This document shows positions 9,594 through 37,800 of a stretch of DNA of 37,861 nucleotides, one piece after another. Location: NCBI GenBank assembly GCA_003142535.1, contig PLMQ01000068.1:215127-252987 (forward strand), read 5' to 3'. The position numbers were made by a program, and so were the translations under genes. Under the pieces are notes generated by a model. It had not been told where the DNA came from and searched no databases. It saw nothing but the letters and a program-made list of their open reading frames with translations. This stretch comes from Syntrophaceae bacterium. GTDB taxonomy: Bacteria > Desulfobacterota > Syntrophia > Syntrophales > Smithellaceae. Each line of letters begins with the position of its first letter. Within the stretch, counting starts at the first letter, position 1.

Positions 9594-10526
9594 ATGATGA
9601 TCAAGCCTGGTCTCCGGGATTTTTTCTGGGTAGTTGCAGGCGCCTTAATAACACTGATACTTGTGCTGGCATTAATGCATTTTCGTGAAGATCAGAGTCC
9701 AGTCGCTCAGCTTGCTTTTAAAACAAAGAGGATAGAATTAGCGGGAAAGATGCGCTTGGCTCTGGCTTTGTCCTCAGAGGCAGGAAACAGTGCCGTTATG
9801 GCTACGACTGACCGGGATTCGCACAATTTTGCCGATCAGGCTCGTGCGGCAACTATATTAGTGGAACAAGATCGCCGGGAATTGACAGAACTTTTGCGCA
9901 AAGGTGGAACAAAGAATGAAGAGGAATTGCTTGCCAAATTTGCCCAAACTTTTACCGAGTTCCAGCGCATAGACAAGGATTTATTGAACCTGGCAGTCCG
10001 TAACACCAATCTCAAAGCATACAGATTGGCCTTTGGTCCGGCCGAAGAAGTGCTTAAGGAAATGGACACTGAGCTTACGCGTATTGCCGAAAAGGCTGCC
10101 GGATCAGCAAAAGATTCCTGTCCAATGCAGCAACTGGCTAATGAAATCCGGATCGGTGCTTTACATATCCAGACCTTGCTCCCGCCGCATATTGCGGAGG
10201 AAAACGACCTCAAGATGGATAAGCTGGAATCTTTAATGGCGCGTGAAGATCGAAATATCCGTAAAAAACTGGAAGATTTGGCTGGGCTACTAAAGTCATC
10301 TGGGGACAGCAAGGATGACGAAGCGGTAACAGCGCGCTACGCCAAGTTCAGGGAAATCAAGGCACAAATTATCAAGCTATCGCGTGAGAATACCAATGTT
10401 CGGTCATTGGCTATCTCATTAAACGAGAAACGTAAGGTAATGCTCGCTGGCCAAGATACTCTGGCTTCACTGGTGCAAGCCATTGAACAAGAACCCATCT
10501 ACGGGGTTCCGGTCAATCCACGATAG
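9594..10526 (+). CDS. Membrane-anchored helical protein, possible four-helix-bundle sensor-like domain
   Basis: The 310-residue product has one N-terminal membrane anchor (~residues 10-30; FFWVVAGALITLILVLALM). After it come long amphipathic helices with the look of the MCP/histidine-kinase periplasmic four-helix-bundle sensors, possibly two bundles (~35-165 and ~175-300). No HAMP, kinase, methyl-accepting or catalytic domain follows, so it is not a complete receptor. Two adjacent ATGs (9594 and 9597) could start it; AAGGGGTG lies upstream. The 16-bp gap to rubrerythrin suggests one operon. I do not recognise a named family. Confidence 0.7.
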   Translation: MMIKPGLRDFFWVVAGALITLILVLALMHFREDQSPVAQLAFKTKRIELAGKMRLALALSSEAGNSAVMATTDRDSHNFADQARAATILVEQDRRELTELLRKGGTKNEEELLAKFAQTFTEFQRIDKDLLNLAVRNTNLKAYRLAFGPAEEVLKEMDTELTRIAEKAAGSAKDSCPMQQLANEIRIGALHIQTLLPPHIAEENDLKMDKLESLMAREDRNIRKKLEDLAGLLKSSGDSKDDEAVTARYAKFREIKAQIIKLSRENTNVRSLAISLNEKRKVMLAGQDTLASLVQAIEQEPIYGVPVNPR

Positions 10527-10603
10527 TTACATAATAATACAAACCAGCGGAAAAGCGACTGAATAGTCTTGCGTATTTTACCATGAAAGATAGAGACAAT
10601 ATT

Positions 10604-29847: not shown

Positions 29848-32181
29848 TTATTTTATACAAACACGCCGTACTTGTTTCATATCTGTCTGGCCTTGAATGG
29901 CTTTAATGATGCCATCTTGCAGAAGAGTGGTCATGCCTTCGGCAATTGCTGCCTGACGGATAGGTTCGGCATGTTCATGCCTTTGAATCATCCTTTTAAT
30001 ATTATCGGAAGCGACAAGCAGTTCATGGATACCTATGCGGCCGCGGTAACCTGTTTTATCACATTCATCGCAGCCCTTCGGACGATAAAGAACTAGATCG
30101 TCTGTATAAGGCAAATTAAGTTTGGCGAATGATTCTTTTCCGTAAATTTCCGCCATTTCATTATATTCTTCTTTGCTTGGGTGATAAGCTTCTTTGCATT
30201 TTTTACAAAGTGTACGCACCAGTCGTTGCGCCAATATACATAAAAGGGCATCGGCAAAATTTAAAGGGTCAATGCCCATGTCCAGCAGACGGACAATTGT
30301 TTCCGGTGCATTATTGGTATGCAGTGTGCTGAGTACAAGATGTCCGGTAAGCGATGCTTCCACGCCAATTTTGGCTGTTTCATAATCGCGCATTTCACCA
30401 ACCATGATTACATCAGGATCGGCACGCAGAAAAGCACGCATTGCGGTGGCAAAGTCAAATCCGATCTTGGGTTGCACCTGAACTTGCCTCAGTCCATGTT
30501 GGGTGATTTCGATAGGGTCTTCTGCTGTCCATATTTTTCTTCCCGGAGTATTAATTTGCCTGAGGCCGGCATGTAGAGTAGTTGTTTTACCGGAACCGGT
30601 CGGTCCGACGCATAAGACCATGCCGTAAGGCTGTTCCATTAACCGCAGCAACTCCGAGTAATTTCTTTTGGTTAGACCCATAACCTCCAACGGCATTGTT
30701 GTTCCTTTGGGCAGAAGGCGCATGACAACATCTTCCGCACCGCCCTGAGTTGGTATTGTAACAACGCGCAACTCGAGTTCATCTCCGCCGGAACGTTTAA
30801 ACTTAATCTTTCCATCCTGCGGTATTCTCCTGACAGTTATATCCAGATTGCACATAATTTTGATACGGGAGACAAGGGCTGCCCGATAGGTATAAGGCAA
30901 CGTCTGATAAAGTGAACATTCGCCGTCAACGCGGTAACGAACTTCGACATTTTTCGTATCGGTATTAGGTTCGATATGAATGTCGGAAGCACGGCGGCTA
31001 TAAGCATCATTGATGATTTTGTTGACCAGCTGCATGATGATGCTATGAGCTTCAGTAATTACTTCGCCGCTTTCTTCTTCTTCAGTAGATTCATCATCAG
31101 TTTCCAGCTTGCCTAATAATTCGTCAATCGAGGCATGATCTTCCGGCGAGGAATAAAAACGTTCAATATATTTCATGATGTCATCAGCCAAGGCAACATC
31201 GTATTTAACAAATTTTGTTTTGAGAAGCCCTTCGATAGTGTCTTTTTTAATAATATTACTGGGATCATCAACGATGACATTGATTTTTCCATCAGATTTA
31301 TTCAAGGGAACCCAAAGTTCGCGTTTTAAAAATGGTTTTTTCAGATTTTTTAATAAATCACCGGGGACTGGAAGCTTATCGTTAAAGGTAACAAACTTGC
31401 AATTGTGATAATCTGCCAGAGCCTTTCCAATGTCATCCTTGGAGATGTTATACTTGTTCATCAGAATGTTTTCGATTCGCTCTTTATTATTGCGCACTTC
31501 TTCCATGACCTTATCCATCTCTGCTTCGCTGATCAGGCCATGTGTTATTAAATAATCAAATTTAAATTCGCGGCGCTGTTTGAGGAATCTTTCCTGATTA
31601 TAGAAAGCAATACCCAGAACATTAGCTATTTCGTCTAAAAATATTTGGCGATAGTCGTCAATCCTATCGCCACCTTTTTTATTCATTGCCTCCAAAACGC
31701 CGATGATGTTGCGTTCATGTGAAATAGGGATGGCAATGACCTGACCGGTTAAGACATTAAATTGCTTGTCAAATGTACGATCAAAAGTAATCTGGTCATT
31801 GATGTTTTTTAACTCCCGCTCATTGTAAGCATCGCTTATATGAACCATTCTTTTTGTATTGGCTACATAACCGGCGATGGTGGTGTTATTAATGGGGAAA
31901 CGAAATTCCTTAATTGCGGAACCATCAACGCGCATAGTGTAAATTTCTTTTTTTGATTTGTCGATTATGTAGATGGTCAGAAAATGAATGTTAAAAAGAT
32001 TGCGGATATCTTCTTTAAGCTCGACGATAATTTCTTTTATGCTTTCAGCATTGTTGACGCGGTTGGTAATGCTTTGAATAGACTTGTGAAATTCAAGATT
32101 TTTTAAAAGTTCCTCTACCTGGGGTGCATCGGAAATTACATTTTTTTGAGTTTTAGCTATAAAGGAACTTGGTTTTTGCAT
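29848..32181 (-). CDS. GAF-domain-containing type IV pilus/type II secretion assembly ATPase (PilB/GspE family)
   Basis: The 777-residue protein has an N-terminal GAF-like domain (~20-175; SIKEIIVELKEDIRNLFNIH through IAIPISHERNIIGVLEAMNK). A GspE N-domain-like pair of segments follows (~205-275; FDYLITHGLISEAEMDKV and ILMNKYNISKDDIGKALADY). The hexameric ATPase core (~375-770) has Walker A GPTGSGKTTT at ~526-535, the Asp/His boxes (RADPDVIMVGEMRD, LSTLHTNNAPE) and a four-Cys zinc site (CKKC and CDEC). It should power pilus or pseudopilus polymerisation or a related machine. GAF is not part of standard PilB. No pilin, PilC or PilQ genes are nearby; it is the last gene of the minus-strand signalling operon. 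Confidence 0.92.
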   Translation of the reverse strand: MQKPSSFIAKTQKNVISDAPQVEELLKNLEFHKSIQSITNRVNNAESIKEIIVELKEDIRNLFNIHFLTIYIIDKSKKEIYTMRVDGSAIKEFRFPINNTTIAGYVANTKRMVHISDAYNERELKNINDQITFDRTFDKQFNVLTGQVIAIPISHERNIIGVLEAMNKKGGDRIDDYRQIFLDEIANVLGIAFYNQERFLKQRREFKFDYLITHGLISEAEMDKVMEEVRNNKERIENILMNKYNISKDDIGKALADYHNCKFVTFNDKLPVPGDLLKNLKKPFLKRELWVPLNKSDGKINVIVDDPSNIIKKDTIEGLLKTKFVKYDVALADDIMKYIERFYSSPEDHASIDELLGKLETDDESTEEEESGEVITEAHSIIMQLVNKIINDAYSRRASDIHIEPNTDTKNVEVRYRVDGECSLYQTLPYTYRAALVSRIKIMCNLDITVRRIPQDGKIKFKRSGGDELELRVVTIPTQGGAEDVVMRLLPKGTTMPLEVMGLTKRNYSELLRLMEQPYGMVLCVGPTGSGKTTTLHAGLRQINTPGRKIWTAEDPIEITQHGLRQVQVQPKIGFDFATAMRAFLRADPDVIMVGEMRDYETAKIGVEASLTGHLVLSTLHTNNAPETIVRLLDMGIDPLNFADALLCILAQRLVRTLCKKCKEAYHPSKEEYNEMAEIYGKESFAKLNLPYTDDLVLYRPKGCDECDKTGYRGRIGIHELLVASDNIKRMIQRHEHAEPIRQAAIAEGMTTLLQDGIIKAIQGQTDMKQVRRVCIK

Positions 32182-32281: not shown

Positions 32282-32650
32282 TTAGGATATTGCCTCGGCA
32301 AAAGTGTCAATAGCAGCGGGGATTTCGATATTCAACAAAAGCCCCATTTGAATTTTATTGGTGTCTAAAACCATGCCCCACACGTAATCACCCAGAGGTA
32401 ATATAACGAGCACTTTATCTTCCTGTAAATCCAGAGTTGCGTATTTCCCCAATTGCGGTAAACTGCCTGCCTTTGTAGCATCATTAATGACTTTAACAAG
32501 TTTAACCATGACTGCGGCCAGTTTAGGATTAGAATTGTAGCCTGCGACTGATTGGCCGTCAACGGTCATGGTAATGGTCGCGGCAATCAGGCTTTCACCT
32601 AGATTAGTCTTCAGGATTTCAATAGCTTCGTTCAATTTTGGTATGTTCAT
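32282..32650 (-). CDS. Roadblock/LC7-like (MglB-type) small protein
   Basis: The 122-residue protein has the alternating helix/strand pattern of the roadblock fold. An opening helix (IPKLNEAIEILKTNLGESL) leads to a strand with an 'xDGQSVA' turn, a long helix (PKLAAVMVKLVKVINDATKA), then strands VLVILPLGDYVWGMVLD and a closing helix. In bacteria such proteins regulate Ras-like GTPases (MglB) or act as scaffolds; no GTPase partner is encoded here. AAGGAG precedes the ATG. It lies 49 bp after the receiver–helix gene and 100 bp before the PilB-like gene, so probably in one transcript. Family assignment rests on pattern only. Confidence 0.65.
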   Translation of the reverse strand: MNIPKLNEAIEILKTNLGESLIAATITMTVDGQSVAGYNSNPKLAAVMVKLVKVINDATKAGSLPQLGKYATLDLQEDKVLVILPLGDYVWGMVLDTNKIQMGLLLNIEIPAAIDTFAEAIS

Positions 32651-32699: not shown

Positions 32700-34340
32700 T
32701 TATTTATTTTTTTTCCAGGCATTTAATTTTTCTTTAGTGTTTTCAGTAGTTCCTGATTTTTTTGATTTCCAGTCAGTTTCTATTTTCGCCTTTAGATCAT
32801 TTTCATTTTTAGTTTTAGCCTTAGCTTTGGAGTCATCTTCTGATTTGGAGCGGGCAGCCGCCACTTCCAGAGCCAGCCTTTCCTTTTTTGCACGAGCCTT
32901 CATTTCTTCTTCTGCTTTTGCTCTTTTTTCTTCTTCCGCCTTTTTCAAAGAGTCTTCTTTTGCTTTAGCATCCACTTCCGCCTTTGCTCTTTTTTCAGCT
33001 TCTTCGCGGGCGCGCTTTTCCGCCAGTGCTTTGGCTGAAGCATTAGCTTCCGCATCAGCTTGTTCTTTGGCTTTTCGTTGTGTTTCTTCCTGATTTTTAC
33101 GCTCAATTTCCTCCTGTCTTACTTTATTTTCGGCTTCTGCACGTGCTTTGGCTGCAGCTTCTGCTCTTAATCTTAATCCCTCTTTAGCTTTCCCCATTTC
33201 TTCTGCTTCCGCACGAGCTTTAGCTTCTGCCCTCGCCCTCGCTTCCGCGTCCGCTTTGGCTTTGGCTTTGGCTTCCTGTTTTAATCTTTCTTCCGCGTCC
33301 GCTTTGGCTTTGGCTTCAGCTTCAGACCTTGCTCTGGCTTCGGCTTCTGCTTTAGTGATGGCTTCCTGCCGGGCTCTCATTTCAGCTTCTTCGCGGGCGC
33401 GTTTTTCCGCTTCCGCGTGTAATTTAGCTTCCTGTTTAGCTCTTTTTTCCGTTTCTTCTTTTGATTTTTTTTCAGCCTCAGTTCTGGCTTTAGCTTCCTG
33501 CTTTTCTTTCTTTTCGGATTCTTCCAGGACTTTCTTTTCTATTTCCGCTTTTGCCTTGGCTTCCGCTTTCAGCCGAGTTTCCTCGCGCATCTTTTGCAAA
33601 TCAGCGGCCGAAATGCTGGTACGGGAACCAAATGTTGCCAGCGACTTGGCTTTAATTTCCTCTTCAATGTTATGCGGCGCTGATGATGGGGCGGCAATGG
33701 GCTGTTTTCTCTCTTCAACCTTTGTCTTAGTCTGCGCCGGAGTGCTGGTCGGCGCGGCGGTAAACGCAGCTTGTTTTGGCACAGCAGCAGGTTTTTGTGC
33801 TGGTGCTGGAGTTATCGGGGCAGGTTTTTGTGATAGTTTGACCGGTGCTTCAACTTTTGTTTGTTTAGGTTCGGCTTTTACTGCTTTAATGCCTAAACCA
33901 TCAAAAATATTTTCCGCCAGTACATTAATATCCAGAGGCTTTTCCAGATAGCGGAAAATTCCCATGTTATGAACAATTTCTTCGATCTTCGGAGTACCGA
34001 AAGCTGTCATAAGAATAACAGGGATTTTAGGATAGTTTCTATTCATGTAGGCGAGAAGTTCAAAACCATCCATCTTCGGCATGCTGAGATCTGTTACCAC
34101 CAGATCAATTACGGAAGATGCTTTCAAGACTTTGATTGCTTCTGCTCCATTTGTTGCCGTGAGCAAATTGAAATTATTTTTATAAATACTTAAACCATCG
34201 GCGATGCTCAGTAGAAATGGTTCTTCATCATCAACAATTAAAACTTGCCTTACGCGGGTAAGTCTTTGCACATCATCTCCTTTAGGCGATGTGAACAATC
34301 GTTGCTTCAGTGTGTCAAGTCCGCCTAATCCGTTTGCCAT
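32700..34340 (-). CDS. Response regulator receiver domain fused to a ~270-residue charged Ala/Glu/Lys/Arg helix
   Basis: Residues ~32-150 form a complete receiver domain: acid pocket DDE (37-39), phospho-acceptor Asp84 (VVTDLSMP), Thr112 (MTAFG) and Lys134 (LEKPLD). A Pro/Ala/Lys linker (~155-225) follows. From ~248 to ~525 comes an almost uninterrupted helix of Ala, Glu, Lys and Arg (AEAEARARSEAEAKAKAD-like units), with a Lys-rich tail. It resembles the TolA stalk or a single-alpha-helix spacer; there is no output domain, signal peptide or membrane segment. DNA of the helix part has near-identical internal repeats. It is preceded by a sigma-54-type promoter and followed by the roadblock-like and PilB-like genes. 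A phospho-controlled scaffold or ruler is a reasonable guess, nothing more. Confidence 0.9.
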   Translation of the reverse strand: MANGLGGLDTLKQRLFTSPKGDDVQRLTRVRQVLIVDDEEPFLLSIADGLSIYKNNFNLLTATNGAEAIKVLKASSVIDLVVTDLSMPKMDGFELLAYMNRNYPKIPVILMTAFGTPKIEEIVHNMGIFRYLEKPLDINVLAENIFDGLGIKAVKAEPKQTKVEAPVKLSQKPAPITPAPAQKPAAVPKQAAFTAAPTSTPAQTKTKVEERKQPIAAPSSAPHNIEEEIKAKSLATFGSRTSISAADLQKMREETRLKAEAKAKAEIEKKVLEESEKKEKQEAKARTEAEKKSKEETEKRAKQEAKLHAEAEKRAREEAEMRARQEAITKAEAEARARSEAEAKAKADAEERLKQEAKAKAKADAEARARAEAKARAEAEEMGKAKEGLRLRAEAAAKARAEAENKVRQEEIERKNQEETQRKAKEQADAEANASAKALAEKRAREEAEKRAKAEVDAKAKEDSLKKAEEEKRAKAEEEMKARAKKERLALEVAAARSKSEDDSKAKAKTKNENDLKAKIETDWKSKKSGTTENTKEKLNAWKKNK

Positions 34341-34533: not shown

Positions 34534-35916
34534 CTACTGCTTATTAATTGAACTGCCGACGGCCAGCTTGTAAAATTTTACTTTTCTCTTCAATGTCGAT
34601 AATGAAATTTCCAGTGCTTTCGCCGTTTGTGAATAGTTGCAGTTATATTTTTCCAATGCCTGCTTAATACATTGTTTTTCCACAGTTTCCAAGGGAATGA
34701 CCTCTTTTTCATTATTGGAAATAATGTTGGCATTGGAACGTTCCGTTGTGTAATTTAATCTTAAAAGTTGAGAAGGTTTCAGCGGTTGTCCGCGTTGAAT
34801 AATTAAAGATCTTTCAATTACGTTTCTTAATTCGCGGACATTTCCCGGCCATTCATAATCCAATAAATTATTCAACTCGGAATCGGCCAGCTTAACTTTA
34901 TGATCCCGCGCCATTTTAGCGATAAAATGTTCGCACAATTTGGGGATATCCTGTTTTCTTTCTCGCAGCGGAGGTATGTGGATACGGATGACGCTGAGGC
35001 GGTAGTAGAGATCATTGCGAAATTCTTTGTTCTTTATTGCATCCTCCAAATCGTTGTTGGCGGAAGCGATTACCCGCACATTGATTGGTTTAAACGATTC
35101 GCCGCCCACCCGGCGGATTCTTTTTTCTTCCAGGACTCCCAGTAATTTAGATTGTAAATGGATAGGCATCGAACCGATTTCATCCAACACAAGTGTGCCG
35201 CCGTCGGCCAATTCAAAAATTCCCTTGCGTGATGCCGTTGCCCCGGTAAAAGCACCTTTTTCGGAGCCGAATAATTCCGACTCAATAAGATTTTCCGGCA
35301 GGGCTGCGCAATTAATTGTTAGAAATAGTTTTTGCGGAAGATTACTTTTATAATGAATGGCGCGGGCAACTACATTTTTGCCCGTGCCTGTTTCGCCGGT
35401 GATGAGAACCGGGGCTTCGCTGGAAGCAGCTATATCAATCATTTTGTGAATCTCGTCAAAAACACCTTCGCCCGAAACGAGTTCGGTTTCTTCGGTTTCC
35501 TGATTGTCCCGGTAATTCTGGATTTGTTCCGTTTTCTCCAGTTCCAGCGTCCGAAAAGCCTGCTTGACGGTAAGTTCCAATTCGGCCATTTCGAACGGCT
35601 TGGACAAATAGTCGTGGGCGCCGACTTTAATCGCTTCTACGGCGTTATTGAAGCTCGGGAAAGCAGTTACAAAAATTATCTTGGTTTGTTCATTCTGATC
35701 AAGAATAGAAGGGCACAGAGTAATGCCTTCAGTATCAGGAAGTTTCTGATCCAGAATAACAACATCTATCTTTTTTTCCGCGCAAATGTTCAAACCCTCT
35801 TTGCCGGTATTGGCAATCAGTACCTCCGTCGCTTCGTCATTCAGCAGGTCGTGCACCGATTCGCAGAAGATATCATTATCATCAATGATAAGAATTTTTC
35901 TCTTAACTTTGCGCAT
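34534..35916 (-). CDS. NtrC-family sigma-54-dependent response regulator
   Basis: This ~460-residue transcription activator has an N-terminal receiver domain with Asp12/13 and phospho-acceptor Asp56 (VVILDQKLP). The central AAA+ domain has Walker A GETGTGKN (~174-181), the sigma-54 contact loop GAFTGA (~221-226) and Walker B GGTLVLDEIGSMP. The C-terminal Fis-type helix-turn-helix is NYSQTAKALEISLSTLKRKV. I chose ATG 35916, which has GAAGGT upstream and overlaps the kinase stop by 14 bp. An upstream ATG (35961) would add 15 residues deep inside the kinase gene. It is the cognate regulator of the adjacent kinase and, by position, likely activates the sigma-54 promoter at 34417-34431. Confidence 0.95.
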   Translation of the reverse strand: MRKVKRKILIIDDNDIFCESVHDLLNDEATEVLIANTGKEGLNICAEKKIDVVILDQKLPDTEGITLCPSILDQNEQTKIIFVTAFPSFNNAVEAIKVGAHDYLSKPFEMAELELTVKQAFRTLELEKTEQIQNYRDNQETEETELVSGEGVFDEIHKMIDIAASSEAPVLITGETGTGKNVVARAIHYKSNLPQKLFLTINCAALPENLIESELFGSEKGAFTGATASRKGIFELADGGTLVLDEIGSMPIHLQSKLLGVLEEKRIRRVGGESFKPINVRVIASANNDLEDAIKNKEFRNDLYYRLSVIRIHIPPLRERKQDIPKLCEHFIAKMARDHKVKLADSELNNLLDYEWPGNVRELRNVIERSLIIQRGQPLKPSQLLRLNYTTERSNANIISNNEKEVIPLETVEKQCIKQALEKYNCNYSQTAKALEISLSTLKRKVKFYKLAVGSSINKQ

Positions 35917-36976
35917 CTGTTTTACCTTCGGGGAAGAATACGGTAACTTTTGTTCCAACATCCCGGGTACTATTTATTTCCATTTTGCCCTTCATGAGGG
36001 TCACCATTTTTAAGGTGATCATGAGACCTAGTCCCGTTCCGCTTGATTTTGTCGTGTAAAATGGTTTGAAAAGATTTGTTTGCATTTCCTCGGACATGCC
36101 GCAACCATTGTCTTCAACCATGATGCCGACATTACCATTTATATTTTCAGCTCTGATAATTATTTCGGGGTTTTCACGATTATCCAGCGCATCGGAAGCA
36201 TTGGTAATTAAATTTAACATGACCTGATGTAAAAGACGCGGGTCGGCTTCAATTGCTTCTAACGTCGGATCTATCACTTTGCTGATTTTGATGCCCGATT
36301 CCCGCAGATCACTTTGCACTAGAGAAATCAGGCGGATTAAAAAGTCCTGCAGCTTGATGTTCTGAATATTCGGACTTTCAAAGATACTAAAACTCTTTAA
36401 TGCCTGCAGGAGATACTCGACACGGGAAATCTCGGTCATGGCACGGTCAACAAATTTTTCCACTGCATTTGTCGAATACTCATCGAGATTTTTTTTCAGA
36501 ACACTCAGGGTCATTTTTATAGAGTTGATAGGGTTTCCCAACTCATGCCGGATGCCGGAAAAAACATAACTGATATTTTCCATCGAATTGACCGCTTCGG
36601 CAATTGATTCCAGACGGCGCTTTTCCGTAATATCCCGGATAATTATCCAGATAAAACGATCGGAACCCATATATGCTGTGTAACTTAAGAGCCGGTCTTT
36701 ATACCAGAGAGTGTTAAATTTACCGAAAACTTCAGAAACAGGGTCTTTGCCGAAACCCGGTAAAAGCAAAGTTAAGAGGGCGCGATAACCAAGATCATCT
36801 CCGCTGTCCTGAAATATATTGGTGGAAAACTTGTTTTTGAATACAATTTCCTGTTTTTTGATGCCGAGAACAACAATACCCAGGTCAATTGTTTCCATAA
36901 TATCGGCATATATGCAATCACCGAAATTCTTATCGCTTATTACCGGACAATTATTGGCTGCAGAAAAATGATCCAT
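35903..36976 (-). CDS. PAS-domain sensor histidine kinase, cytosolic
   Basis: The 357-residue kinase has no membrane segment. A PAS-like domain occupies ~25-120 (IDLGIVVLGIKKQEIVFKNK to FIWIIIRDITEKRR). The HisKA dimer helix carries His144 in GIRHELGNPINSIK. The ATPase domain has the N box (LNLITNASDAL), G1 (EDNGCGMS), F (FKPFYTTK) and G2 (GTGLGL). It should phosphorylate the NtrC-type regulator whose gene overlaps its end, and possibly the receiver–helix protein. The ATG has only a weak AAAGAG upstream. Transcription appears to come from a promoter near 37156-37184, through a GEMM-like riboswitch and terminator, with a possible second promoter at 37011-37039. Confidence 0.94.
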   Translation of the reverse strand: MDHFSAANNCPVISDKNFGDCIYADIMETIDLGIVVLGIKKQEIVFKNKFSTNIFQDSGDDLGYRALLTLLLPGFGKDPVSEVFGKFNTLWYKDRLLSYTAYMGSDRFIWIIIRDITEKRRLESIAEAVNSMENISYVFSGIRHELGNPINSIKMTLSVLKKNLDEYSTNAVEKFVDRAMTEISRVEYLLQALKSFSIFESPNIQNIKLQDFLIRLISLVQSDLRESGIKISKVIDPTLEAIEADPRLLHQVMLNLITNASDALDNRENPEIIIRAENINGNVGIMVEDNGCGMSEEMQTNLFKPFYTTKSSGTGLGLMITLKMVTLMKGKMEINSTRDVGTKVTVFFPEGKTDAQS

Positions 36977-37000: not shown

Positions 37001-37039
37001 ATTGTTACAGATTATAGCATATTATAACAATCAAAACAA
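37001..37039 (-). promoter_or_regulatory. Possible proximal promoter and dyad upstream of the histidine kinase gene
   Basis: On the minus strand TTGTTT (37039-37034), 17 bp and TATAAT (37016-37011) form a fair sigma-70 promoter just past the riboswitch terminator. An inverted repeat, ATTGTTA (37001-37007) and TAACAAT (37025-37031), brackets the -10 box and may be an operator. If active, this promoter would bypass the riboswitch. Confidence 0.4.
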
Positions 37040-37079
37040 AAAAACCGCCCAGATAACTTAATTGAGTTACCCTTGGCGG
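37038..37079 (-). terminator. Intrinsic terminator that forms the riboswitch expression platform
   Basis: On the minus strand CCGCC (37079-37075) pairs with GGCGG (37049-37045), and inner TAACT (37069-37065) with AGTTA (37058-37054), followed by seven T (37044-37038). Its left arm shares base 37075 with the aptamer's closing strand CAAG (37075-37072), which lies between the paired CCGCC and TAACT, so terminator and ligand-bound aptamer should exclude each other. Confidence 0.75.
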
Positions 37080-37146
37080 CCCGGCTGTCAATATTGACCC
37101 GTAACTTTCCGTCCCACATCTCAATTAGTGGTATGGCTTTTTCAAG
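37072..37146 (-). promoter_or_regulatory. GEMM-like riboswitch (cyclic-di-GMP-I / cGAMP class or variant)
   Basis: Minus-strand RNA upstream of the kinase operon shows the order of GEMM hallmarks: GGGACGGAAAG (37115-37105; consensus GGGACGCAAAG), ACGGGTC (37102-37096), a 6-base loop, and GACAGCCGGG (37089-37080; consensus GACAGCCGGG). CCAC/GTGG closes the first hairpin. CTTG (37146-37143) and CAAG (37075-37072) form the closing stem, and the latter overlaps the terminator. Departures are a 10-base loop instead of a GNRA tetraloop, C to G in the ACGCAAAG box, and GTT instead of GCC after it (partly compensated by AGC on the other side). Consensus is from memory; the ligand may differ. The geometry predicts ligand turns the operon on. 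Confidence 0.72.
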
Positions 37147-37155
37147 TATATAGTT

Positions 37156-37184
37156 TTGATATAAATAATTACTTTGAATGTCAA
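37156..37184 (-). promoter_or_regulatory. Promoter driving the riboswitch leader
   Basis: On the minus strand TTGACA (37184-37179), 17 bp and TATCAA (37161-37156) place the start site near 37149, just before the aptamer's first paired base at 37146. The -35 box is perfect. The region lies upstream of the chosen GTG start of the divergent gene. Confidence 0.6.
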
Positions 37185-37194
37185 GGATATTTTC

Positions 37195-37800
37195 GTGAAT
37201 CAGTATAAAAAATATTGCCTATTTTTATTTTTTATCATTTTGATGATTTCGACTATTATAATGTCGGCACCGCGCTTTTTGCTTTATTCTTCGAACTATC
37301 AGAAAGCAAATGCAATAATTCTTTTGTTGGGTCCTGATTTTACCGCTAGGCAGAAAGAAGCTTACAGGGTAATTAATGAGGGAATGGTCGATTATCTTAT
37401 TATTCCGGCACAGAATAAAGTGTATAGAATATATAACGAAGGAGAGATAAAATATTTATCGCCGAATTTATCTGCAAAAAATGTGAGCAGGAAGGATATT
37501 GCCAATTCACCGAATTATTATGAAGATACGCATCTGGAGATAATTGAGGCCAGAAAGATAATGTCTCAATATGGGCTGCTCTCTGCCATATTCATCAGCT
37601 CCCCTTATCATATGCGGCGAATCAAACTAATAGCGATAAAAGTTTTTGATAATAAGAGCGGAGAATTATATTTTGTGCCGACAAGCTATGAAAAAGCACC
37701 GGCAAAATTCTGGGAGATGTCCTCTGCGGATTGGAAAAAAGTGGGAAGAGAGTATAGCAAAATGCTTTGGTTTTCTCTTTATGCTCCCTGGACAAATTAA
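37195..37800 (+). CDS. YdcF/ElyC-like (DUF218) membrane protein
   Basis: This ~201-residue protein has an N-terminal membrane segment (LFLFFIILMISTIIMSAPRF). A DUF218-type domain follows: KANAIILLLGPDF replaces the usual ADAIVVLGGG, then EDTHLEIIEARKIM and ISSPYHMRRIKLIA, the latter matching the family's 'TSxYHMxR' block. ElyC/SanA/YdcF members are linked to envelope integrity and lipid-carrier metabolism, but activities are unclear. I chose GTG 37195, with AAGGAT 6 nt upstream; TTG 37174 in the same frame would overlap the divergent promoter's -35 box. It is divergent from the riboswitch-led operon and ends with a terminator. Confidence 0.8.
   Translation: MNQYKKYCLFLFFIILMISTIIMSAPRFLLYSSNYQKANAIILLLGPDFTARQKEAYRVINEGMVDYLIIPAQNKVYRIYNEGEIKYLSPNLSAKNVSRKDIANSPNYYEDTHLEIIEARKIMSQYGLLSAIFISSPYHMRRIKLIAIKVFDNKSGELYFVPTSYEKAPAKFWEMSSADWKKVGREYSKMLWFSLYAPWTN

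Follow-up and report, generated by a model that had tools for sequence, protein, structure and literature searches.

A GEMM-I riboswitch whose aptamer overlaps its terminator, predicted to respond to c-di-GMP, at the head of a two-component and PilB-like ATPase operon in a Smithellaceae bacterium

The leader and the operon

The window analyzed here, a 37,861-nucleotide stretch of contig PLMQ01000068.1 from a Syntrophaceae bacterium, carries on its minus strand a regulatory leader followed by an operon that begins with the genes of a two-component pair and ends with that of a PilB-like ATPase (Table 1). Read 5' to 3', the leader consists of a promoter (37184-37156), an aptamer (37147-37072), and an intrinsic terminator (37081-37038), with the histidine kinase ATG at 36976; aptamer and terminator together span 37151-37038, and we counted 61 nt from the terminator to the ATG. 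An earlier note on this DNA had described a promoter, aptamer motifs, a closing stem and an overlapping terminator with seven U residues, ending about 60 bp before the kinase ATG, and all these elements are present in the sequence where it placed them. Its larger claim, namely, that a GEMM-type riboswitch with an overlapping terminator heads an operon of a histidine kinase, a sigma-54 response regulator and a PilB-like ATPase, is supported by the analyses described below.

Table 1. Coordinates of the leader elements and the downstream genes in the window
Feature	Position	Strand	Basis	Remarks
-35 hexamer TTGACA	37179..37184	-	sequence	kept in nearly all 15 orthologous leaders
-10-like hexamer TATCAA	37156..37161	-	sequence	17-nt spacer from -35
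GEMM-I (c-di-GMP-I) aptamer	37072..37147	-	RF01051, 39.2 bits; RF03167, 48.1 bits (below cut-off); R2, 52 bits	
P2	37114..37131	-	sequence, loop survey	4-bp stem CCAC/GUGG, 10-nt loop UAAUUGAGAU in place of GNRA tetraloop
P3	37078..37106	-	alignments A2, A3	short, without 11-nt tetraloop receptor
Intrinsic terminator	37038..37081	-	folds	GGCCGCC...GGCGGUU, hexaloop CAAUUA, U7; conserved in G004, G012 and G007
Histidine kinase	35903..36976	-	Pfam	HisKA + HATPase_c
NtrC-type sigma-54 response regulator	34534..35961	-	Pfam	overlaps kinase gene
Receiver domain protein	32700..34340	-	Pfam, translation	long charged, coiled-coil-like tail
122-aa protein	32282..32650	-		between receiver/coiled-coil and PilB-like genes; conserved by synteny
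PilB-like ATPase	29848..32181	-	Pfam	GAF + MshEN + T2SSE

All 15 orthologous leaders have a conserved promoter block, in most cases with TTATATCAAA retained. A generic promoter scan did not call TTGACA-N17-TATCAA, owing to the final A of the -10 hexamer. On the plus strand, a divergent open reading frame of the DUF218 family occupies 37174-37800, with a mechanically assigned start that overlaps the -35 region of this promoter.

The kinase gene shares 59 nt with the regulator gene, the subsequent intergenic gaps measure 193, 49 and 100 nt, and no minus-strand terminator candidates were found in the gaps between the operon genes; the five genes are likely to share one transcript. The 122-aa protein matched no Pfam or NCBIfam family above the cut-off, and the PilB-like ATPase scores below the NCBIfam PilB cut-off. 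The gene order is the same in the genus of the window genome (g1, represented by G000), in g3 (including G012 and G007), in g5 (G004), and in more remote relatives, among them L078 and L079, so that the conservation of the operon reaches beyond that of the switch.

A divergent member of the GEMM-I class

The earlier note had proposed running the Rfam GEMM covariance models on the minus-strand leader. RF01051 (c-di-GMP-I) matches above its gathering score of 35, with E = 2.2e-4 when the entire window is searched against all of Rfam, and a match to RAGATH-17, far below the cut-off of that family, is noise. Our own covariance model R2, built from 19 aptamers from other genera and other loci and including no sequence of this locus, recovers the window aptamer with E = 2e-12 in 96 kb and 5.9e-11 genome-wide. 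Conservation of the paired positions had been named beforehand as a test: in an alignment of 34 aptamers, 97.6% of the cells are paired and both sides have changed in 12 of the 16 pairs, a level of covariation that none of 500 shuffles reached and that is also far beyond slid controls. On its own, the aptamer, closed by a P1 in which CUUG (37146-37143) pairs with CAAG (37075-37072), folds no better than shuffled sequences (z -0.43), and the evidence for it is therefore covariance and conservation rather than free energy. We conclude that the GEMM-I riboswitch in this leader is real and seems to be under selection; it adds a new member to a known class.

With that class, the window RNA shares the P2/P3 core, with both helices kept, as well as G20, A47 and C92, the overlap with the expression platform, and a score above the gathering cut-off; it departs from the RF01051 norm in having C21-G46 for G21-C46, no GNRA loop on P2, and no 11-nt receptor in P3. 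Docking of the P2 GNRA loop into P3 is a usual but not a defining trait of c-di-GMP-I RNAs, and the family threshold is reached in its absence. In what we take to be Vc2 numbering, anchored on G20, A47 and C92, these three ligand-contacting residues fall at 37137, 37108 and 37076, respectively, and all are intact at their alignment positions, whereas the off-consensus base of the ACGGAAAG box is G46 (37109), whose partner is C21 (37136). The earlier note was correct in observing that the ACGCAAAG box and the tetraloop deviate from the norm. Its suggestion of a rarer GEMM variant with an altered binding pocket, however, does not hold, because the box change compensates G21C, restoring a Watson-Crick 21-46 pair in swapped orientation, and G20, A47 and C92 are intact; judged from the alignment, the ACGGAAAG box is a compensated base-pair change and not an altered pocket.

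The swap is widespread. A pattern for C21-G46 was found in 54 of the 395 genomes sampled from the phylum, and the reversed control pattern had no match among the matches listed for the same sample; among the 34 aligned aptamers, the 21-46 pair is CG in 22, GC in 11 and GU in one. Members of the C21-G46 sub-type usually have GUAA, GCAA or GUGA loops and lack the 11-nt receptor. Given how common C21-G46 is in this phylum, mismatches to the textbook ACGCAAAG box do not signify a new pocket unless position 21 has been checked.

Membership in c-di-GMP-I-GGC (RF03167), a class of variants in which the pocket is altered, would account for the observation that the same stretch scores higher with this model than with RF01051, and the two are alike in their short, receptor-less P3 and similar 3' strand. 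Yet the score stays below the RF03167 cut-off of 59 bits, the class consensus is G47 where the window RNA has A47, and the score seems to be due to the shared receptor-less P3; even the canonical copy at C15, which has A47, scores above the threshold of this family. We therefore rejected this assignment, which we regard as most improbable.

The tetraloop deviation is equally real. In a survey of P2 loops, from which chance pattern matches and stems with internal mismatches were set aside, GNRA was found in every aptamer but L213 (AUGA), besides the window copy and its orthologue in G004, where the loops are 10 and 12 nt long, respectively. The 8-nt segment UAAUUGAG of the window loop (37127-37120) is perfectly complementary to CUCAAUUA in the terminator (37066-37059). 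In G000, these 8 bp are reached by 0.5% of shuffles when only Watson-Crick pairs are counted and by 4.2% when G-U pairs are allowed; a kissing contact between the two segments found no support in G004, G012 or G007 and is an idea only. A candidate contact between the P2 and P3 loops was at chance level.

The terminator and a proposed switching mechanism

The terminator, with its stem at 37081-37043 and seven U residues at 37044-37038, lies in a region that folds 3.9 SD better than shuffled sequences. Its 5' strand, GGCCGCC, is the 3' strand of the aptamer and includes C92 and C93, so that the bound aptamer and the terminator are mutually exclusive. When growing prefixes of the leader were folded, the aptamer with P1 was present at lengths of about 81-102 nt, and the terminator appeared once about 105 nt had been reached.

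We consider it probable that this element is a c-di-GMP-sensing GEMM-I riboswitch acting as a transcriptional ON switch of the operon; both c-di-GMP as the ligand and the ON direction are the most likely choices given the sequence and precedent. In the absence of ligand, the nascent leader would refold such that GGCCGCC, which includes the ligand-pairing C92, pairs with GGCGGUU, producing a strong terminator upstream of the kinase gene. If c-di-GMP binds before the terminator is complete, the last aptamer strand would stay in place, with C92 paired to a G of the ligand and P1 closed, and RNA polymerase would read through, allowing production of the histidine kinase, the sigma-54 response regulator, the receiver/coiled-coil protein, the 122-aa protein and the PilB-like ATPase. 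The nearest known architecture is that of pilM in Geobacter metallireducens, which acts as an ON switch and has a similar binding window, about 25 nt; there, too, the terminator re-uses the 3' strand of the aptamer, the two structures exclude each other, and pilus genes lie downstream (PMC9262584). The two differ in that pilM senses cGAMP, whereas G20 predicts c-di-GMP for the window copy, and in that a two-component pair comes first in the window operon.

The other GEMM-I copy in the genome, which is canonical, lies upstream of a type IV prepilin peptidase gene, and both switches therefore point at pilus genes; the window switch may control pilus assembly. MshEN is a known c-di-GMP-binding domain, and c-di-GMP may thus act twice, on transcription and, as can be surmised for the window protein, on the ATPase itself. 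The syntrophic lineage concerned has been little studied, and the analysis places in it a putative c-di-GMP switch upstream of a two-component/PilB-like operon.

Ligand specificity

Switches of the GEMM-Ib type that sense 3',3'-cGAMP control many pilus and cytochrome genes in Geobacter, and the earlier note had raised this class for the present locus. The precedent of pilM, which belongs to the same family, and the presence of A20 in the G004 orthologue speak for cGAMP. The window copy, however, has G20 rather than the A20 of GEMM-Ib, and the A20G substitution converts the cGAMP-selective Gmet_0970 riboswitch into a c-di-GMP-selective one (PMC6456294), hence the prediction of c-di-GMP here. 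Furthermore, the genome yielded seven GGDEF domains, all with the Asp of diguanylate cyclases at the base-contact site and none of the Hypr type, with Ser at this site. We accordingly reject the cGAMP class for the window copy, for which it seems quite unlikely, although it may fit the orthologue in g5.

A different concern is that the riboswitch is decaying, with no useful ligand binding, and that the leader functions mainly as a constitutive attenuator, as is apparently the case in part of g3, where the leaders of G012 and G007 have the terminator without a recognizable aptamer. The window aptamer has lost the GNRA loop, has U at position 24 (A24U), and has A-C at 49-90. In the Cd1 riboswitch, the A24-26U mutant, discussed in connection with the P2 tetraloop contact, showed no binding (PMC9262584), and the affinity of the window aptamer could therefore be low. 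Against decay, two genera in which the loops and the 5'UTR are saturated show 82-100% conservation of the pocket and core strands, an argument that binding is under selection in each of them. On balance, decay appears unlikely.

Orthologues and the history of the switch

In the kinase tree, midpoint-rooted with the outgroups L077-L080, G004 (g5) branches first, followed by g1, which includes the window genome, and then by g3 together with g6; the fork between g1 and g3+g6 has a support of 89/87. Both g5 and g1 have an intact aptamer, but most of the orthologous operons have a degenerate switch or none, which weighs against our main reading. In g3, the aptamer has changed beyond recognition by covariance model, and the leaders of G012 and G007 have kept the terminator along with stretches of homology to the leader; in g6, both aptamer and terminator are gone. 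A search for aptamer remnants in the g3 and g6 leaders gave no significant covariance-model match, and what is left in G012 and G007 is sequence homology of the leader only. The simplest reading is that of one ancestral switch that was later lost.

Between g1 and g5, the core strands of the aptamer are 82-100% identical, compared to 29-34% for the P2 loop and the 5'UTR, a contrast that, at the level of sequence comparison, indicates selection on the aptamer. The window copy has G at position 20 and G004 has A; if the published rule for this position holds, the orthologous switches of g1 and g5 would prefer different dinucleotides. The source of cGAMP in G004 is uncertain: 11 of the 12 GGDEF matches in this genome have Asp, and one degenerate GGDDF domain (L239) has Ser at the Hypr position.

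It is conceivable, if rather doubtful, that one and the same switch on the same operon responds to c-di-GMP in g1 and to cGAMP in g5, with P2 docking replaced by another contact, and that its aptamer is dying in g3, where the terminator is kept. Should this be the case, these operons would illustrate, as a natural series, ligand change and death in riboswitches. The orthologues, with G20, with A20, with the aptamer lost and the terminator kept, and with everything lost, form a small set for the study of ligand drift and loss.

In g3, L026 and L028 are GEMM-I copies with G21-C46 and A20 (the cGAMP type), and both ligand types therefore exist in the family. L179:1487-1820 (G022:C84, approximately 10217-10531) is a tandem array of four C21-G46 aptamers with G, A, G and G at position 20, which may mix c-di-GMP- and cGAMP-type aptamers. 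On a Nitrospirae contig, a strong GEMM-I match (L093:2707-2785, minus strand; 74 bits with model R1) is separated by about 4 kb from a homologous kinase gene on the opposite strand.
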